Assembly (NCBI GenBank): GCA_018396695.1
Contig: JAGTQU010000017.1
Span: 1-33,718 of the forward strand
Source: Candidatus Bathyarchaeota archaeon
GTDB taxonomy: Archaea > Thermoproteota > Bathyarchaeia > TCS64
Length of the DNA stretch: 33,718 nt
Reading direction: 5' to 3'
Both the position numbers and the translations under genes were made by a program. This document shows positions 4,970 to 25,383 of the stretch, one piece after another; the stretch's first letter is position 1, and the number at the start of each line of letters is the position of its first letter. The notes beneath the pieces were generated by a model. That model saw only the letters and a list, made by a program, of their open reading frames with translations, did no database searches and had not been told where the DNA came from.

Positions 4970-5100
4970 TGGGGCCGGAAGGATTTGAACCCTCGACATT
5001 CGGGTTTCTGCTCCAAAACTTCTTCATTCCGCTTTGACGGTCAGTAAACCCAAATTTTGGTTCTGGAGCCCGACGTCATACCTGCCTAGACCACGGCCCC
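4970..5100 (-). tRNA. tRNA-Trp (CCA anticodon) with a 57-nt intron at 37/38
   Basis: Read on the minus strand, the acceptor GGGGCCG pairs perfectly with CGGCCCC and the discriminator is A. The D arm has GTC/GAC, the anticodon stem is TCGGG/CCCGA, the loop CTCCAGA gives anticodon CCA (Trp), and the T arm is GAGGG-TTCAAAT-CCTTC. The exons are 5100-5063 and 5005-4970, giving a 74-nt tRNA including the discriminator; CCA is not encoded. The intron is 5062-5006, at the canonical archaeal site. A bulge-helix-bulge-like fold can form: exon CTCC against intron GCAG with one mismatch, and inner helix CCAAAA/TTTTGG. The intron also contains CTGA and ATGAAGA boxes reported as a finding. Confidence 0.95.
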
Positions 5101-5764: not shown

Positions 5765-5887
5765 GGGTTGCCGGCCATAGGACGCGGGACCTACCCGAAC
5801 CCATTCCGAACTCGGAAGTTAAACCGCGTTCCGTCCTCGGTTGTAGTGTTGTCTTCGGCGACGCGAAGCCGCGGAAGCTGGCAGCCC
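5765..5887 (+). rRNA. 5S ribosomal RNA
   Basis: About 123 nt. Helix I forms between GGGTTGCCGGC (5765-5775) and GCTGGCAGCCC (5877-5887), 11 pairs including G-U. Inside it are the universal 5S blocks: ACCCGAACCCATTCCGAACT with the loop-A/helix-III core, GGAAGTTAAACC after it, and CCTCGGTTGTAGTGTTG leading into the helix IV/V arm with a TCTTCGG loop. The gene is not linked to 16S or 23S rRNA here, which is usual outside the Euryarchaeota. A T run (ATTTTTC, 5900-5906) downstream may terminate it. It converges with the ABC ATPase gene. Confidence 0.95.
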
Positions 5888-18453: not shown

Positions 18454-19359
18454 TTGAATAGAACCATGGATAAGATTTCTAAAATTCTAGAAGGAGCTAT
18501 AGATATTCATCAACATACGAGTCCAAGCATTTTTCCAAGGATCATGGATGGGATTGGAGCAGCGTTAGATGCGAAAAAGGCTCGAATTCGAGGGATCGTG
18601 CTTAAAGATCACCATATACCTACCACTGACCGGGCTTATCTTGCTCATGAAACTGTTCCAGAAGTCGAAGTTTTTGGGGGCGTAGTGCTCAACTATGCTG
18701 TTGGAGGGTTAAACCCCTATGCGGTGGATGCAGCCATCAGGCTCGGAGCCAAGATCGTTTGGATGCCCTCGATCGATGCGATGAGCCACAAGAGGCATTT
18801 CGGAGAGGTGGGAGGATTTGGTAGACGACTTGGTTATGAGAAGTCCTTCTTTTATGATAAGAGCGAAGGTATCGAGATATTGGATGAACGCGGCCCTGAT
18901 CCAAGGTTGATAATGATTCTACGCCTAATAGCTGAGGCAGATATAGCGCTCGCGACATCCCACCTCTCTTTCGAAGAGTCGAAGCTGCTTGTTGAGCAGG
19001 CGGTTCGAAGTAATGTGAAAAAAGTAGTCGCCACTCACGTCGATTTCATCACCGCAAGTCTATCTTTAGAAGAGAAAAAATGGATGGCTGAGAGGGGGGT
19101 CTTCCTCGAGCTTTGCTACTCAACCTTGCTCCCTCCATGGAAGCATAAAACAATTGAAGAGATGGTTGAATCAATCAATACAATAGGAGCAAAGCATTTC
19201 ATAGTATCCAGCGATCTAGGTCAACTCCAAAACCCTCCTCCATCCGTAGGTTTGAGAAGCTTCATCGAGATGTTGCTTAAACATGGTATAGGGGAAGAAG
19301 AGATCCGAATGATGATTAAATATAACCCTGAAAAACTGCTTGGGCTAAAAGAGCTTTAA
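18454..19359 (+). CDS. DUF6282 amidohydrolase-like protein
   Basis: 301 aa, fits the DUF6282 family, which resembles the metal-dependent amidohydrolase/PHP TIM barrels. Likely metal ligands are in the first strand DIHQHTSPS (HxH) and KDHHIP, with later His in TSHLSFEES and ATHVDF and an Asp in VSSDLGQ. The last helix MMIKYNPEKLLGL is the usual amidohydrolase C-terminal motif. The reaction and substrate are unknown. The start at 18454 is TTG; an ATG lies four codons in. The stop overlaps the 3' end of the convergent flavoprotein gene by four bases. Confidence 0.78.
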   Translation: MNRTMDKISKILEGAIDIHQHTSPSIFPRIMDGIGAALDAKKARIRGIVLKDHHIPTTDRAYLAHETVPEVEVFGGVVLNYAVGGLNPYAVDAAIRLGAKIVWMPSIDAMSHKRHFGEVGGFGRRLGYEKSFFYDKSEGIEILDERGPDPRLIMILRLIAEADIALATSHLSFEESKLLVEQAVRSNVKKVVATHVDFITASLSLEEKKWMAERGVFLELCYSTLLPPWKHKTIEEMVESINTIGAKHFIVSSDLGQLQNPPPSVGLRSFIEMLLKHGIGEEEIRMMIKYNPEKLLGLKEL

Positions 19360-20960
19360 ATCCGGGCTTTCTCAAGAATAATATCCCCTTTTGCTCCGAG
19401 GCTTAAGTTAACTGATGCACGCCATGAAGGGTCCTCTTTGGGATAGTCTCGCCTGTAATGGGCTCCTCTACTCTCAGTCCTCATAAACGCGGCTCTAACG
19501 ATCATCTCGGCAGCGTCTAAAGCCATGGGAGTCTCCAGGGCTTCAAGCATTGAACTATTTTGAGATGCTCTGAGCATCGGGAGAAGGCCTCTAAGCCGGA
19601 TTATCGTATCTAGGGCCTCTGAGAGGCTTTTCTCGTCTCGAACAATCCCTGCGTTAGTCCACATCAGATCTCTGAGCTGGTTAAGGATAGTTCTCGGGTT
19701 TATTGCTCCAGCCGAGCCGCCATCTCTAATAGTTTTATAACGTTCCAATTCAGGTTGGGCTTCCGATTCAATCTTGGGATGGATCCTACTCTCAGCAAAC
19801 TCGGCTGCGGCCTCTCCTGCACGAGCCCCAAAGACTATTGCTTCCGTCAGGGCATTCCCACCGTGTCGATTAGCCCCATGTAAGCCTCCTACAACTTCGC
19901 CGGCTGCGAATAATCCGGCGACGCCGGTATGCCCGTACCCGTCTATGATGATCCCGCCCATACAGAAGTGGCTTATAGGAGCAACTCTCAAGGGTTTTTC
20001 TCCACCCTTCAACCGTTCTTTGAAAAACTCATAAGACCTAGATGAGAACCAGCCTTCCTTCGATCCTTTCTTGAAGTAGTCTCTAGCATCGATCAGAACG
20101 GCGTTGTCTACGCCCCTCCCCTCCAAGATCTCTATCATAATTGCTCTTGAGAGCAGATCCCTCGATTTGAGGACGAGTGGACGCAGATTCACACGGTGCT
20201 TCTCAGCTATATCCTCCCCTAAACGGTTTATTATCCGGCTCTCCTCTGTTAATGCTCCTCCAAGAAGATGGGGTGGTGCGTCAGCCTCTGCTAGGGCTAG
20301 GGGGAAGAACTGAACGAACTCCATATCTCTCAACTTGGCTCCGGCACTATACGCTAGACTATACCCGTCGCCTACAGTCCTAAAGGGACAGTCTGTCCGT
20401 TTGTAGAGGGCTCCAGCCCCGCCTGTTGCGAGGATAACTGCCTTAGCTGAGAATATGGTAGGTTCGTCATTTCGAATATCGTAGCCTACTGCCCCTATCA
20501 CTTCGCCTTCTTCTTTAAGAATCTTGGTTATAATTACATTTTCATGGAATTTCACGCCTATCTTTCTGGCGTAATCCACCATGGGTTTAGTTATGCGGTA
20601 ACCTGAAGCGTGAAAAGGTTCTCCGACGTGTGCTCCTCCAAAGCTGATCCTGATCTCAACGCCAAACCTCCTCAACTCGGAGACTCTTTCTCCCCCCTCT
20701 TTTGAGAAAATTCTAACAAGATTCGAATCGTTTATTCCCTTCCCCACCGTTAAAGTATCTCTAAAATGTTCTTCAGGGGTTAACCCGCCCAATGTAGCTC
20801 TGAACCCGCCACCGCTTACAGCTGTTGCATTATTCATCCCAGCAGGAGTTTTAGATACAATCGAAACCTGTACGCCTCTCGACCTAGCCTCTATTGAGGC
20901 TCTTAAACCTGCTGCGCCGGCCCCTACGACTAGAACACCGGTATCGAACAGTTTTACCAT
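19356..20960 (-). CDS. FAD-dependent SdhA/FrdA-like flavoprotein
   Basis: 534 aa, of the succinate dehydrogenase/fumarate reductase/L-aspartate oxidase flavoprotein family. The dinucleotide site VVGAGAAGLRASIEA is at residues 11-25. The second FAD motif LHGANRHGGNALTEAIVFGARAGE and the active-site block APISHFCMGGIIIDG are intact. Two family residues are changed: the FAD-linking His region reads GMNNATAVSGGG, so FAD is probably non-covalent, and the fumarate-binding QFHPT block reads QFFPL (Phe219 in place of His). The substrate may therefore not be succinate. No iron-sulfur or membrane subunit is adjacent. It lies 27 bases downstream of the CoA-transferase gene and is probably co-transcribed with it. 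Confidence 0.85.
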   Translation of the reverse strand: MVKLFDTGVLVVGAGAAGLRASIEARSRGVQVSIVSKTPAGMNNATAVSGGGFRATLGGLTPEEHFRDTLTVGKGINDSNLVRIFSKEGGERVSELRRFGVEIRISFGGAHVGEPFHASGYRITKPMVDYARKIGVKFHENVIITKILKEEGEVIGAVGYDIRNDEPTIFSAKAVILATGGAGALYKRTDCPFRTVGDGYSLAYSAGAKLRDMEFVQFFPLALAEADAPPHLLGGALTEESRIINRLGEDIAEKHRVNLRPLVLKSRDLLSRAIMIEILEGRGVDNAVLIDARDYFKKGSKEGWFSSRSYEFFKERLKGGEKPLRVAPISHFCMGGIIIDGYGHTGVAGLFAAGEVVGGLHGANRHGGNALTEAIVFGARAGEAAAEFAESRIHPKIESEAQPELERYKTIRDGGSAGAINPRTILNQLRDLMWTNAGIVRDEKSLSEALDTIIRLRGLLPMLRASQNSSMLEALETPMALDAAEMIVRAAFMRTESRGAHYRRDYPKEDPSWRASVNLSLGAKGDIILEKARI

Positions 20961-20987: not shown

Positions 20988-22193
20988 CTAAATAGCGCGT
21001 ATTTTACGCAGCTTCTCTATCTCATCGGTCGAGTATTCAGCTATCTCTTTCAATACCTCCTCAGTATGCTCCCCTAGAATCGGGGGAGGAAACTCAACAA
21101 TACAAGAAGACTCGGAGAATTTTATGACGGGCCCGATCTGCTTTATTTTTCCCGCTTTTTTATGATTCATCTCGATGAGCATTCTACGCTGAAGAATATG
21201 GGGGTCTTTGAATATCTCATCGATTGTGTATACTGGACCACATGGGAAACCTATGCTTCTTAGACGTTCAAGCCATTCATCCCTAGTTTTCTTCTTGAAT
21301 TCGCTTTCCAGGTGAGAGACCAACTTGACCCTGTTCTCTACACGCTTGTCAGCAGAAGCGTATAGGGGATCATTCTTCAGCTCCTGTAAATCCATCCCAT
21401 CGCAGAGCAGCGACCAAAGCCGATCATTGCCAGCGGCTATTAGAATATGCTTTCCATCCGATGCCTCAAAACTCTGATAGGGAACTATGCTCGGATGAGC
21501 CGATCCCATTCGAGGAGGGACATTACCTGTAGCAAAGTAGTTTCCAGCCACATAGGTCATCCAAGAGACCGACCCATCAAGCATTGATACATCTATATAT
21601 TGACCCGCGTTCAAGTGTTCTCGCGCCATCAATGCTGCTAGAATAGCTATAGCCGCCCACATTCCAGCGCCGATATCAGTAATCGCGACACCAACTCTCA
21701 CAGGAGGCCCGTTTGGCTCTCCAGTAATCCCCATGAGACCCCCCATTCCTTGGACTATTAAGTCGTAACCTGGCCAGTCCGCGTAGGGCCCAGACTGTCC
21801 AAAGCTCGATATGCTGCAATATATGAGGCGCGGGTTTATTTCGTGAATTGTTTCATAGTCTACGCCAAGCCTTTTTGTAACTCCGGGTCTAAAGTTTTCT
21901 AAGAGTACATCGCTTTTTTTAACTAGCCTATATAATACTTCTCTAGCCTCCTTTTTTTTAAGGTCTAAGGTTACGCTCTTTTTCCCTCTGTTTATTGATA
22001 GAAAATAACTGCTCTCCCCGTTAATGAAGGGCGGGTAGGCTCGGGTATCGTCTCCTAATTCAGGCATCTCGACTTTTATAACCTCGGCACCAAGCTCTGA
22101 GAGTATCATCGAGCAGAATGGTCCGGCTAGCACCCTGCTCAGATCTATGATGCGAACTCCTTTCAGAGGGGGGTTACTAACGGATTTAGACAT
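20988..22193 (-). CDS. CaiB/BaiF family (class III) CoA-transferase
   Basis: 401 aa, full length. Family blocks are IIDLSRVLAGPFCSMILSELGAEVIKVE, the nucleotide-pocket FLSINRGKKSVTLDLKKKE, DVLLENFRPGVTKRLGVDY, GYDLIVQGMGGLMGITGEP, and GVAITDIGAGMWAAIAILAAL, whose aspartate is the catalytic residue forming the acyl anhydride. The C-terminal part holds FPCGPVYTIDEIFKDPH. It transfers CoA between carboxylic acids; the acids are unknown (oxalate, carnitine, succinate and others in relatives). It is the first gene of a pair with the SdhA-like flavoprotein, which suggests that a CoA ester or its free acid is then oxidised or reduced. Confidence 0.93.
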   Translation of the reverse strand: MSKSVSNPPLKGVRIIDLSRVLAGPFCSMILSELGAEVIKVEMPELGDDTRAYPPFINGESSYFLSINRGKKSVTLDLKKKEAREVLYRLVKKSDVLLENFRPGVTKRLGVDYETIHEINPRLIYCSISSFGQSGPYADWPGYDLIVQGMGGLMGITGEPNGPPVRVGVAITDIGAGMWAAIAILAALMAREHLNAGQYIDVSMLDGSVSWMTYVAGNYFATGNVPPRMGSAHPSIVPYQSFEASDGKHILIAAGNDRLWSLLCDGMDLQELKNDPLYASADKRVENRVKLVSHLESEFKKKTRDEWLERLRSIGFPCGPVYTIDEIFKDPHILQRRMLIEMNHKKAGKIKQIGPVIKFSESSCIVEFPPPILGEHTEEVLKEIAEYSTDEIEKLRKIRAI

Positions 22194-22344: not shown

Positions 22345-22569
22345 CTAATCTGTTGACGCTTGCATATTTTCCAGCGTCTTCTTGAGAGATTTGGAAACTT
22401 CCTCTGTGTGTTTTATAGCTTCTTTGAGGCTTTTCGACGCCTCTACGAATCCAAGTTGCTCTATTTCGATAGATGCTTTCTCGATCCGAGACTTGTGCTC
22501 CTCGTTATGTTCTATCCAATGTTCAATTAGCTTCCTCCACCTAACCCTCTCTTCACTCATGTTTATCAA
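22345..22569 (-). CDS. Small helical coiled-coil protein, unknown
   Basis: 74 aa, not recognised with confidence. It is almost all alpha helix, rich in Glu, Lys and His (KLIEHWIEHNEEHKSRIEKA; SKSLKEAIKHTEEVSKSLKK), giving a helical hairpin or coiled coil. The clustered His and Glu residues (EHWIEHNEEH) could bind a metal. Two starts are possible, ATG at 22569 or the ATG four codons in. The gene stands alone before an 850-bp gene-free stretch. Confidence 0.6.
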   Translation of the reverse strand: MINMSEERVRWRKLIEHWIEHNEEHKSRIEKASIEIEQLGFVEASKSLKEAIKHTEEVSKSLKKTLENMQASTD

Positions 22570-23419
22570 AAACTATTTGTTTTTAGCTAATAAAAATTAA
22601 TCCCCCACGCCATCTAAAAATTATTAATTAGGCATCTAGTTCCTTTTAGATAAAGCGCTCAATAAATCTTAATCTTCTTCTACCACCTAAATCAATTCGC
22701 AAGAGAATTTGAATCCTTGTCTTTCAGTCTTTTAAACTGAATCATATAAGGTATATTAAATATATGGCAAACCACTCGAACACGGGACTTCATTTTCTAC
22801 ATCGTGCATGTACATGAAGAACCAAAACGCGAGAACTTCGATATTGGCGAGGGGCGTCTTTTTGCGGTTCACGAATGAATAAAGGAGAGTCGATGAAGCC
22901 AATATCGAAAAGAATTCAAGCCTTTTTCATCGACTAAAAATCATTAAATGAGCTAAAAAGAATCAATTAATAATTGTTTACATCTTAAAAAGGATTTTTC
23001 GAGAGGTGATATTGCGGCATCAGAATGCGAGCGATTATAAACATATGAAAAAATTAGGTCTTCTATTTTTATTAAACTTCACTCTTAGATAAATCTTAGC
23101 TAAATGATGAATATACCATTATAGTTAATTATTTTTAAAAAATGAAAACTATTCAAAACATTGTTTATTAAAATTAAAAATAGGATCCTTTTTGTCACTT
23201 TATCAGCAACATTCATCCCAGAAAACCACTACATTTTAAACATTCTCACTTCACTTCATTCTTTAAGCACTCTCAAGTCGTTCAAACATTCCTCTTCATA
23301 TTCGTTCAGCCTCTAACAGCTTCAAACACTCAGCTTCAAAATAGGATCGAGAACAATCCTTAAGCAGTAAGAAACAGTTCACCATATTTTCTGGGGGACA
23401 AAAATTAATCTGATGCTTC
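22570..23419. other. Gene-free stretch of about 850 bp
   Basis: No ORF over 60 codons with coding character is present. A strong TATA-like block (22751-22766) precedes a region with two long interleaved inverted repeats (22837-22935; separate entry). From 22940 to 23220 the sequence is A/T-rich with nothing recognised. Near 23256-23385 on the minus strand there is a short, possibly frameshifted reading frame. Conserved RNase P or SRP RNA motifs were looked for and not seen. Confidence 0.6.
22780..22940 (+). ncRNA. Candidate structured, pseudoknot-capable RNA
   Basis: Stem A pairs 22837-22848 (TTCGATATTGGC) with 22898-22909 (GCCAATATCGAA), 12 perfect pairs. Stem B pairs 22888-22897 (AGTCGATGAA) with 22926-22935 (TTCATCGACT), 10 perfect pairs. 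The order A5', B5', A3', B3' is that of an H-type pseudoknot, and B5' directly abuts A3'. A smaller hairpin CTTCAT/ATGAAG (22788-22793, 22814-22819) precedes it. The TATA-like block at 22751-22766 would start a transcript at about 22780. The strand is inferred from this promoter only. No known RNA family is recognised. Confidence 0.4.
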
Positions 23420-23914
23420 TTAGAGATAGATCTTCTCGAGGCAGATGTCTTCTGAACTCCTTCTTATCGATCTAGGCTCGATCTTAAATCGAGGGTCGAT
23501 TCTTTTTAGAATAGCTTCGATAGAAGGTATGGCGAGATTCGAACAGATCTCGCCCTGAAGATGGCCACAGTCTACGTTGACACCTAGCAGAGCTTCGTAG
23601 AATGGGCACCTTCTAACTGCGAATACAGCGTATTCCTCTTTTTTCTCTACGACTTGAACCTTAGCTCCTGCGTCTCCCATAAAGATTTTGTACGCTTCAA
23701 TGCCAGAGTCTAAAAGACTAAGATTCTTTGGCATTTTCTTCTTAACCTGCTCGACGATGATTTCCGCCTGTTTTTCTACAGCTTCTTGAAAGATTTGCAG
23801 GCCTTTATCAGATCCTAACTCTTCAATAATTCTCATAACTAAAAGAAAAGTGAGGATATAACTTCTTATTACGCCACTGGAATAGTCGACCTTCTCGAAA
23901 CTTTCCAGATTCAC
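23420..23914 (-). CDS. L-2-amino-thiazoline-4-carboxylate hydrolase-like protein
   Basis: 164 aa. An N-terminal helical half (VIRSYILTFLLVMRIIEELG) is followed by an alpha/beta part with RRCPFYEALLGV, VDCGHLQGEICSNLAIPSIEAI and a final ICLEKIYL strand, the pattern of the ATC-hydrolase-like family (distantly V4R-like). Several cysteines (in RCPF, VDCG, EICS) could be catalytic or bind a ligand. Few members are characterised, so the activity is uncertain. The GTG start shares one base with the TAG stop of the acyl-CoA synthetase gene (TAGTG), so translation is probably coupled and the two products may work together. Confidence 0.6.
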   Translation of the reverse strand: MNLESFEKVDYSSGVIRSYILTFLLVMRIIEELGSDKGLQIFQEAVEKQAEIIVEQVKKKMPKNLSLLDSGIEAYKIFMGDAGAKVQVVEKKEEYAVFAVRRCPFYEALLGVNVDCGHLQGEICSNLAIPSIEAILKRIDPRFKIEPRSIRRSSEDICLEKIYL

Positions 23915-25335
23915 TACGCCTTCGCCCTGTCTAAGTAGAGCTTCCTCCTGTAGAGGACACCCATAACATCAGCAGCGCGCTCTGGGGTAGTGTACACGGG
24001 GATGCGAGCGTCTTCCATAATCTTAGTCGACTCGGTTTCGATATCTGCAGCAGGGTTGATGACTAGTACGGGTTTCTCATATTTTTTATATGTTGTAATG
24101 AGCTGTTCACTGATCCATTTGTATATGCCGCTCAAATCTTCTTTAGCGACATCGGGGAACATTGTCTGCAGAATGCTTGTTCCCAAACCAATGGTGATTA
24201 ATCCATCTATTTCAGGCTGAGATAATACTATGTCAGGGACTCTCAAGAAGGAGTTCATATTCAGTGAAGCTGTTAAATCTACTGGATTCCTGGGGTTACC
24301 GAAGTCTGGTATGACTTTAAGGATCTCTTTCTGAGCCTCCTCTCTTAGAACTGGAACTTTGAGACCGTTGTTGATGAGGGCGTCAGCAGTCTCAACAGCT
24401 ATTCCTCCGGAGTTTGAAACCACTCCTATCCTATCCCCCTTCGGTAGTGGAGCATAGATTAAGCCTTTAATGAAATCGAACATCTCTGAAGCGTCTCTTG
24501 CCCTAATAACTCCGGCTTGTTTAAAGGCTGCGTCATAGATCTTGTCGCTTCCGCTTAATGATCCCGTATGGCTAGCTGCGGCTTTCCCCCCCTCCTCCGT
24601 GGTTCCTACCTTTATGGCGACTATTGGCTTATTCTTCGTAATCTCTTTCGCAGCCTCGTACCATTCTCTCCCTTTCCTCAAACCTTCGATATAGAGACAG
24701 ATCAGTTTCACGCTCGGGTCATCAGCGAAATATTTGATGTAGTCGACCCCGATTATATCCGATTCGTTTCCGCTGCTGATGAACTTGTTTATACCAACCC
24801 CCATAGCTGAAGCCCTAAGGTAGAGTTGAAGCCCATAGCCTCCGCTCTGGGAGACGAAGGCTACCTCACCTTTTTCATGGAGGAAGGGTATCATGAGGGC
24901 GCTGAATTTAGCTGGGCTGCTACAGATCCCCATGCAATTTGGACCAATGAATCTAACTTTCCCTTGGGCGTTGGCTTTAATCTGTTCAACAAGTAACCGT
25001 CCCTCTTCTCCCGACTCGCCGAAGCCTGAGGTGATCACTACTGCGCCCTTCACACCTTTCTCTGAAAGATCCTTGAATACTGAGGGTACAACCTTCGCAG
25101 GCACTACTACAATAGCCATATCGACATCTTCAGGGACATCTTTCACAGAGGGATAGCACTTTAGATTTTCAATCTCTTCTTCCCTCGGGTTTATAGGATA
25201 TATTTTCCCCTGAAACCCCCCCTTAATTATAGCTGACAGTAGCATATGACCCCATTTTAGAGGGTCCTTCGATGCTCCAATTACTGCAACGCTTTTCGGC
25301 ATCAGGATACTGTCTAAAGCTTCTTTAACATCCAT
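23914..25335 (-). CDS. ADP-forming acyl-CoA (acetate-CoA ligase) synthetase alpha subunit
   Basis: About 473 aa, holding the CoA-binding domain (SVAVIGASKDPLKWGHMLL, YPINP) and the two succinyl-CoA-ligase-like domains (FIGPNCMGICS, FVSQSGGYG, SSGNESDIIG). The phosphohistidine of the alpha subunit is in KAAASHTGSLSGSD, about residue 256 with this start. It splits acyl-CoA to acid and CoA while phosphorylating ADP, the ATP-yielding step of archaeal sugar and amino-acid fermentation. The ATP-grasp beta subunit is neither fused nor present in the window, so it must be elsewhere. The frame opens at GTG 25350, but GCAGGTG six bases before ATG 25335 supports the later start. It lies between the HpaI-like aldolase and the ATC-hydrolase-like gene in one operon. 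Confidence 0.9.
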   Translation of the reverse strand: MDVKEALDSILMPKSVAVIGASKDPLKWGHMLLSAIIKGGFQGKIYPINPREEEIENLKCYPSVKDVPEDVDMAIVVVPAKVVPSVFKDLSEKGVKGAVVITSGFGESGEEGRLLVEQIKANAQGKVRFIGPNCMGICSSPAKFSALMIPFLHEKGEVAFVSQSGGYGLQLYLRASAMGVGINKFISSGNESDIIGVDYIKYFADDPSVKLICLYIEGLRKGREWYEAAKEITKNKPIVAIKVGTTEEGGKAAASHTGSLSGSDKIYDAAFKQAGVIRARDASEMFDFIKGLIYAPLPKGDRIGVVSNSGGIAVETADALINNGLKVPVLREEAQKEILKVIPDFGNPRNPVDLTASLNMNSFLRVPDIVLSQPEIDGLITIGLGTSILQTMFPDVAKEDLSGIYKWISEQLITTYKKYEKPVLVINPAADIETESTKIMEDARIPVYTTPERAADVMGVLYRRKLYLDRAKA

Positions 25336-25383
25336 CGTATTCACCTGCACTATAAGGCTCTATGGAAATGGAGTCTTAAATAT

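Follow-up and report, generated by a model that had tools for sequence, protein, structure and literature searches.

In a CoA-metabolism operon of a Bathyarchaeal genome, about 808 bp of apparently non-coding DNA seems to have been inserted between neighbouring genes, and it carries two perfect, interleaved inverted repeats. We read it as an insertion with a structured RNA segment, whose transcription, folding and function we infer, and give this reading a probability of about 0.42. The repeats clearly exceed what chance would place in a single genome, and comparison with seven relatives shows that they lie within lineage-specific extra DNA.

The operon and the extra DNA

The host is a Bathyarchaeia genome of 1.9 Mb in 91 contigs. 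On the minus strand of the window, the whole stretch of 33,718 nucleotides that was analysed, an operon-like series of CoA-metabolism genes surrounds the gap in which the repeats lie:

23914-25350, minus strand: acetate--CoA-ligase-type (ADP-forming) alpha subunit, operon member
23420-23914, minus strand: ATC-hydrolase-like gene (just below the Pfam cut-off), upstream of the insertion in the operon direction
22592-23410, no strand assigned: putative insertion of 808 bp together with a retained copy of the 11-bp repeat; apparently non-coding and present once
22345-22560, minus strand: conserved 71-aa ORF with homologues in relatives, downstream of the insertion in the operon direction
20988-22193, minus strand: CoA-transferase family III (CaiB-like), operon member
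19356-20960, minus strand: fumarate-reductase-type flavoprotein, operon member

The 71-aa ORF matched no curated family. It is a genuine gene: seven relatives have a homologue with 37-46% identity at the corresponding place. Several Bathyarchaeia keep it between the ATC-hydrolase-like gene and a gene for a CoA-transferase or a flavoprotein; in other relatives it is missing there.

The distance from the stop of the ATC-hydrolase-like gene to the 71-aa ORF (stop codon excluded) is 38-60 nt in the seven relatives, which include two genomes from other families of the order, whereas it is 859 nt here. By this outgroup comparison the compact spacing is to be regarded as ancestral, and the extra DNA is therefore best read as an insertion; the comparison of empty sites is of moderate strength, all of the relatives' sites coming from other genera. 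Four short elements were found at the ends of the extra DNA:

22592-22602, plus strand: direct repeat AAAAATTAATC, left insertion end, resembling a target-site duplication
23400-23410, plus strand: direct repeat AAAAATTAATC, right insertion end
22601-22607, plus strand: TCCCCCA, left member of a possible pair of short terminal inverted repeats, overlapping the direct repeat by 2 nt
23392-23398, plus strand: TGGGGGA, right member of that possible pair

The two 11-bp direct repeats are exact. One lies just upstream of the start of the 71-aa ORF and the other 9 nt after the ATC-hydrolase-like gene, and an exact repeat of such length between the two end zones arose in 8 of 3000 shuffles. When one repeat unit (808 bp) is deleted, 51 nt remain, which is the spacing of the relatives. 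The AT-rich composition of the direct repeat is a point against an insertion, and the TCCCCCA/TGGGGGA pair, 7 nt long with an offset of one base, is too short as proof of a transposable element. The direct repeat and the restored spacing give moderate support to an insertion with a target-site duplication in the assembled contig, the repeat probably having originated as the duplication.

The initial annotation had called the region gene-free. This agrees with our searches: translated in six frames, the insert had no Pfam match, and two of its minus-strand frames, compared with PHROGs, had none either; no transposase or recombinase was recognised in the same frames. At 23185-23400 the minus strand is purine-rich, and its frames resemble short pieces of helical protein (FEAECLKLLEAERI, YEEECLNDLRVLKE) with stops in between. 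This could be a decayed gene inside the insertion; the fragments matched no family. A 57-codon frame at 22764-22936 on the plus strand, with one internal TGA, was discarded after it gave merely weak, composition-driven matches to unrelated places. A rough ORF-based estimate counts 40 gaps of at least 700 nt among 1175 in 1.52 Mb of the genome, so that a gap of this size is uncommon but not exceptional for the host.

Short and apparently non-coding intergenic insertions flanked by a short direct repeat are known from the non-autonomous insertion elements, or MITEs, of prokaryotes (review PMC10969869), and the comparison with empty sites points to an insertion with a target-site duplication at moderate strength. 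In contrast to such elements, the insertion is present in a single copy rather than in several per genome, its terminal inverted repeats are very short and imperfect, and no related transposase was identified. No other copies of its ends were found in 1.5 Mb of the genome, and a 22-nt insertion-end pattern searched with up to 3 mismatches had no further copy in the whole genome.

Interleaved repeats and their predicted folding

The arms of the two inverted repeats were located from the sequence, and the island around them from composition and sequence:

22764-22936, no strand assigned: local G+C island with the repeats inside
22837-22848, plus strand: stem A 5' arm TTCGATATTGGC
22888-22897, plus strand: stem B 5' arm AGTCGATGAA, adjoining the 3' arm of stem A with no base between
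22898-22909, plus strand: stem A 3' arm GCCAATATCGAA
22926-22935, plus strand: stem B 3' arm TTCATCGACT

Stem A has 12 perfect base pairs with 49 nt between its arms, and stem B has 10 perfect base pairs with 28 nt between its arms. As first annotated, the two repeats interleave and B abuts A'; our re-check reproduced the coordinates exactly. The order is A-B-A'-B' with loops of 39, 0 and 16 nt, there being no base at the B/A' junction. Read as its reverse complement, the contiguous 22-nt block at 22888-22909 gives A (22837-22848) and then B' (22926-22935). Across 22760-22919 the G+C content is 0.43-0.48, against 0.20-0.33 in the surroundings. On the plus strand G exceeds C over 22800-22919, whereas the flanks are mostly G-rich on the minus strand instead, a skew that hints weakly at an RNA from the plus strand.

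How often such a pair arises by chance was estimated with shuffles that preserve local dinucleotide composition, counting interleaved pairs with gaps up to 60. A pair of at least 12 and at least 10 bp occurred in 2 cases in 19,475 shuffles of the window (657 Mb), which corresponds to about 0.006 per 1.9-Mb genome; for pairs of at least 10 and at least 10 bp, the same shuffles give an expectation of 0.16 per 1.9 Mb. When the 860-bp gap alone was shuffled locally, a pair of at least 12 and at least 10 bp appeared in 4 of 20,000 shuffles. The figure of 0.006 leaves the zero-base junction out of account. Such a junction was present in 5.6% of the interleaved shuffle pairs of at least 8 and at least 8 bp, and the product of both rates suggests roughly 3 occurrences of a 12/10 pair with a zero-base junction in 10,000 genomes. 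In 1.52 Mb (about 80%) of the same genome, no second interleaved pair of at least 10 and at least 10 bp was found elsewhere. The repeat pair exceeds single-genome chance and is not ordinary background of the host genome. The earlier statement that it is unlikely by chance thus holds for one genome, while a screen of many genomes would turn up such cases.

The geometry suits an H-type pseudoknot, as had been proposed, with interleaved helices and compatible loops (39/0/16). With the H-type pseudoknots of some riboswitches and of type III toxin-antitoxin RNAs it shares the order A-B-A'-B', the zero-nucleotide junction that allows coaxial stacking and loops long enough to span the helices. Compared with the compact H-type RNAs, its helices (12 and 10 bp) and its first loop (39 nt) are longer, and the candidate is known from the sequence of one genome, with no homologues known.

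The nested fold of the 99-nt segment has an energy of -28.7 kcal/mol on the plus strand and -20.0 kcal/mol on the minus strand. For the pseudoknot, stacks of -20.9 and -17.1 and a penalty of +9.6, the value of a standard pseudoknot energy model, give a rough estimate of -28.4 kcal/mol, or -32.8 kcal/mol if the long loop forms a hairpin. The two stems keep the same strength on the minus strand, where the nested competitor is weaker. By this rough estimate the pseudoknot would tie with the nested hairpin on the plus strand and beat the nested fold on the minus strand, which is sense for the operon. The proposed pseudoknotted RNA is consistent with the geometry and with these energies (-28.4 against -28.7 and -20.0), but they do not establish the plus strand as the preferred one, the minus strand offering less competition.

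The minimum-energy fold of the plus strand over 201 nt consists of stem A and an inner hairpin and has a z of -2.2. Wider segments gave modest z values of -1.5 to -2.3 on the plus strand and about -1 on the minus strand. The segment bounded by helix A reached -4.8 on the plus and -4.1 on the minus strand, values that are biased since the segment was picked by its repeat ends.

No clear promoter or terminator for the segment was found. The TATA-like block described upstream is present at about 22746-22765. A promoter matrix derived from the genome, itself weak, did not select it on the plus strand. Since the DNA is AT-rich, the matrix weak and the block nearly symmetrical, it says little.

Homologue searches and competing explanations

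A search of the host genome revealed no further copy of the insertion or of the segment. The 221-bp segment had no homologue by DNA in 100 relatives, the best match (E 0.001) being a 23-nt AT-rich stretch. Below E 0.1, a covariance model recovered the window alone from the 257 genomes of the class searched, and among 121 genomes the best matches besides the window had E values of 0.3-0.6; built from a single sequence and from the nested plus-strand structure alone, the model would miss diverged homologues. Viral contigs searched with exact-arm patterns gave no homologue, nor did phages and plasmids searched with the whole insertion. Because no relative has the segment, its function can be neither demonstrated nor excluded from the sequence alone.

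Membership in a known RNA family, such as a tRNA-like RNA, a C/D or H/ACA guide RNA or a riboswitch, is highly improbable: nothing speaks for it beyond the structure, Rfam gave no match at gathering level, and permissive filters returned matches at chance level alone. Inspection by eye of both strands showed no boxes of H/ACA or C/D guide RNAs. Elsewhere in the window, a tRNA (Rfam 48.9 bits) at 4970-5100 on the minus strand has its anticodon arm interrupted by about 60 nt and is an intron-containing archaeal tRNA, which was missed by ARAGORN in bacterial mode. The plus strand carries a 5S rRNA gene standing on its own at 5767-5886, the only rRNA found in the window.

Judged from the sequence, a structured RNA segment is a plausible, unproven reading, and about equally likely is inert DNA, a real but decaying insertion whose interleaved repeats arose by coincidence or as a side effect of mutation, such as template switching during replication. 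The single copy without relatives, the lack of coding content and the weak fold z-scores of wide segments all agree with inert DNA, as does the finding that long AT-rich gaps (the 40 of at least 700 nt in 1.52 Mb) are not rare in the host genome; a screen of many genomes would also pick such pairs by selection. Against coincidence stands the expectation of about 0.006 pairs per genome even with the zero-base junction uncounted. In addition, one template switch would have to copy from an unbroken 22-nt source, but the two halves of the source are separated by 77 nt. Recombination and transfer sites often carry inverted repeats, and this general frequency, the target-site-duplication-like ends and the possible short terminal inverted repeats would favour repeats that act on DNA, serving a mobile element bounded by the 11-bp direct repeats as sites of recombination or protein binding. 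We consider this improbable: the repeats are placed deep within the insertion, away from its ends, neither a recombinase nor a transposase was recognised within it, a second copy is absent, and it would be unusual for a dimeric operator to have its arms 49 or 28 nt apart.

A possible role in the operon

If the insertion works at all, a structured RNA segment would be the most likely mode. If transcribed, the 22-nt block would pair with the flanking 12-nt and 10-nt segments, and the resulting helices of 12 and 10 bp may stack coaxially in an H-type pseudoknot. Such an RNA could be a short one made by the insertion itself, or the structure could form on the minus strand in read-through RNA of the operon, where it might separate or stabilise the messages of the ATC-hydrolase-like gene upstream and of the 71-aa ORF and CaiB downstream. 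The fullest version, an undescribed pseudoknotted RNA, recently acquired by one Bathyarchaeal lineage, that sets an expression boundary between the operon halves as its own transcript or within the operon RNA, seems to us rather unlikely.

If the segment is not transcribed, it would be an ordinary small insertion that splits the genes of an operon and bears a striking but functionless repeat pair. In either case the comparison with empty sites supplies context beyond the reading of a single sequence. If it is transcribed, a lineage-specific structured RNA would have come into being when DNA was inserted into a functioning operon of an archaeon, which would make it a case for studying the origin of non-coding RNAs and of new regulatory boundaries.
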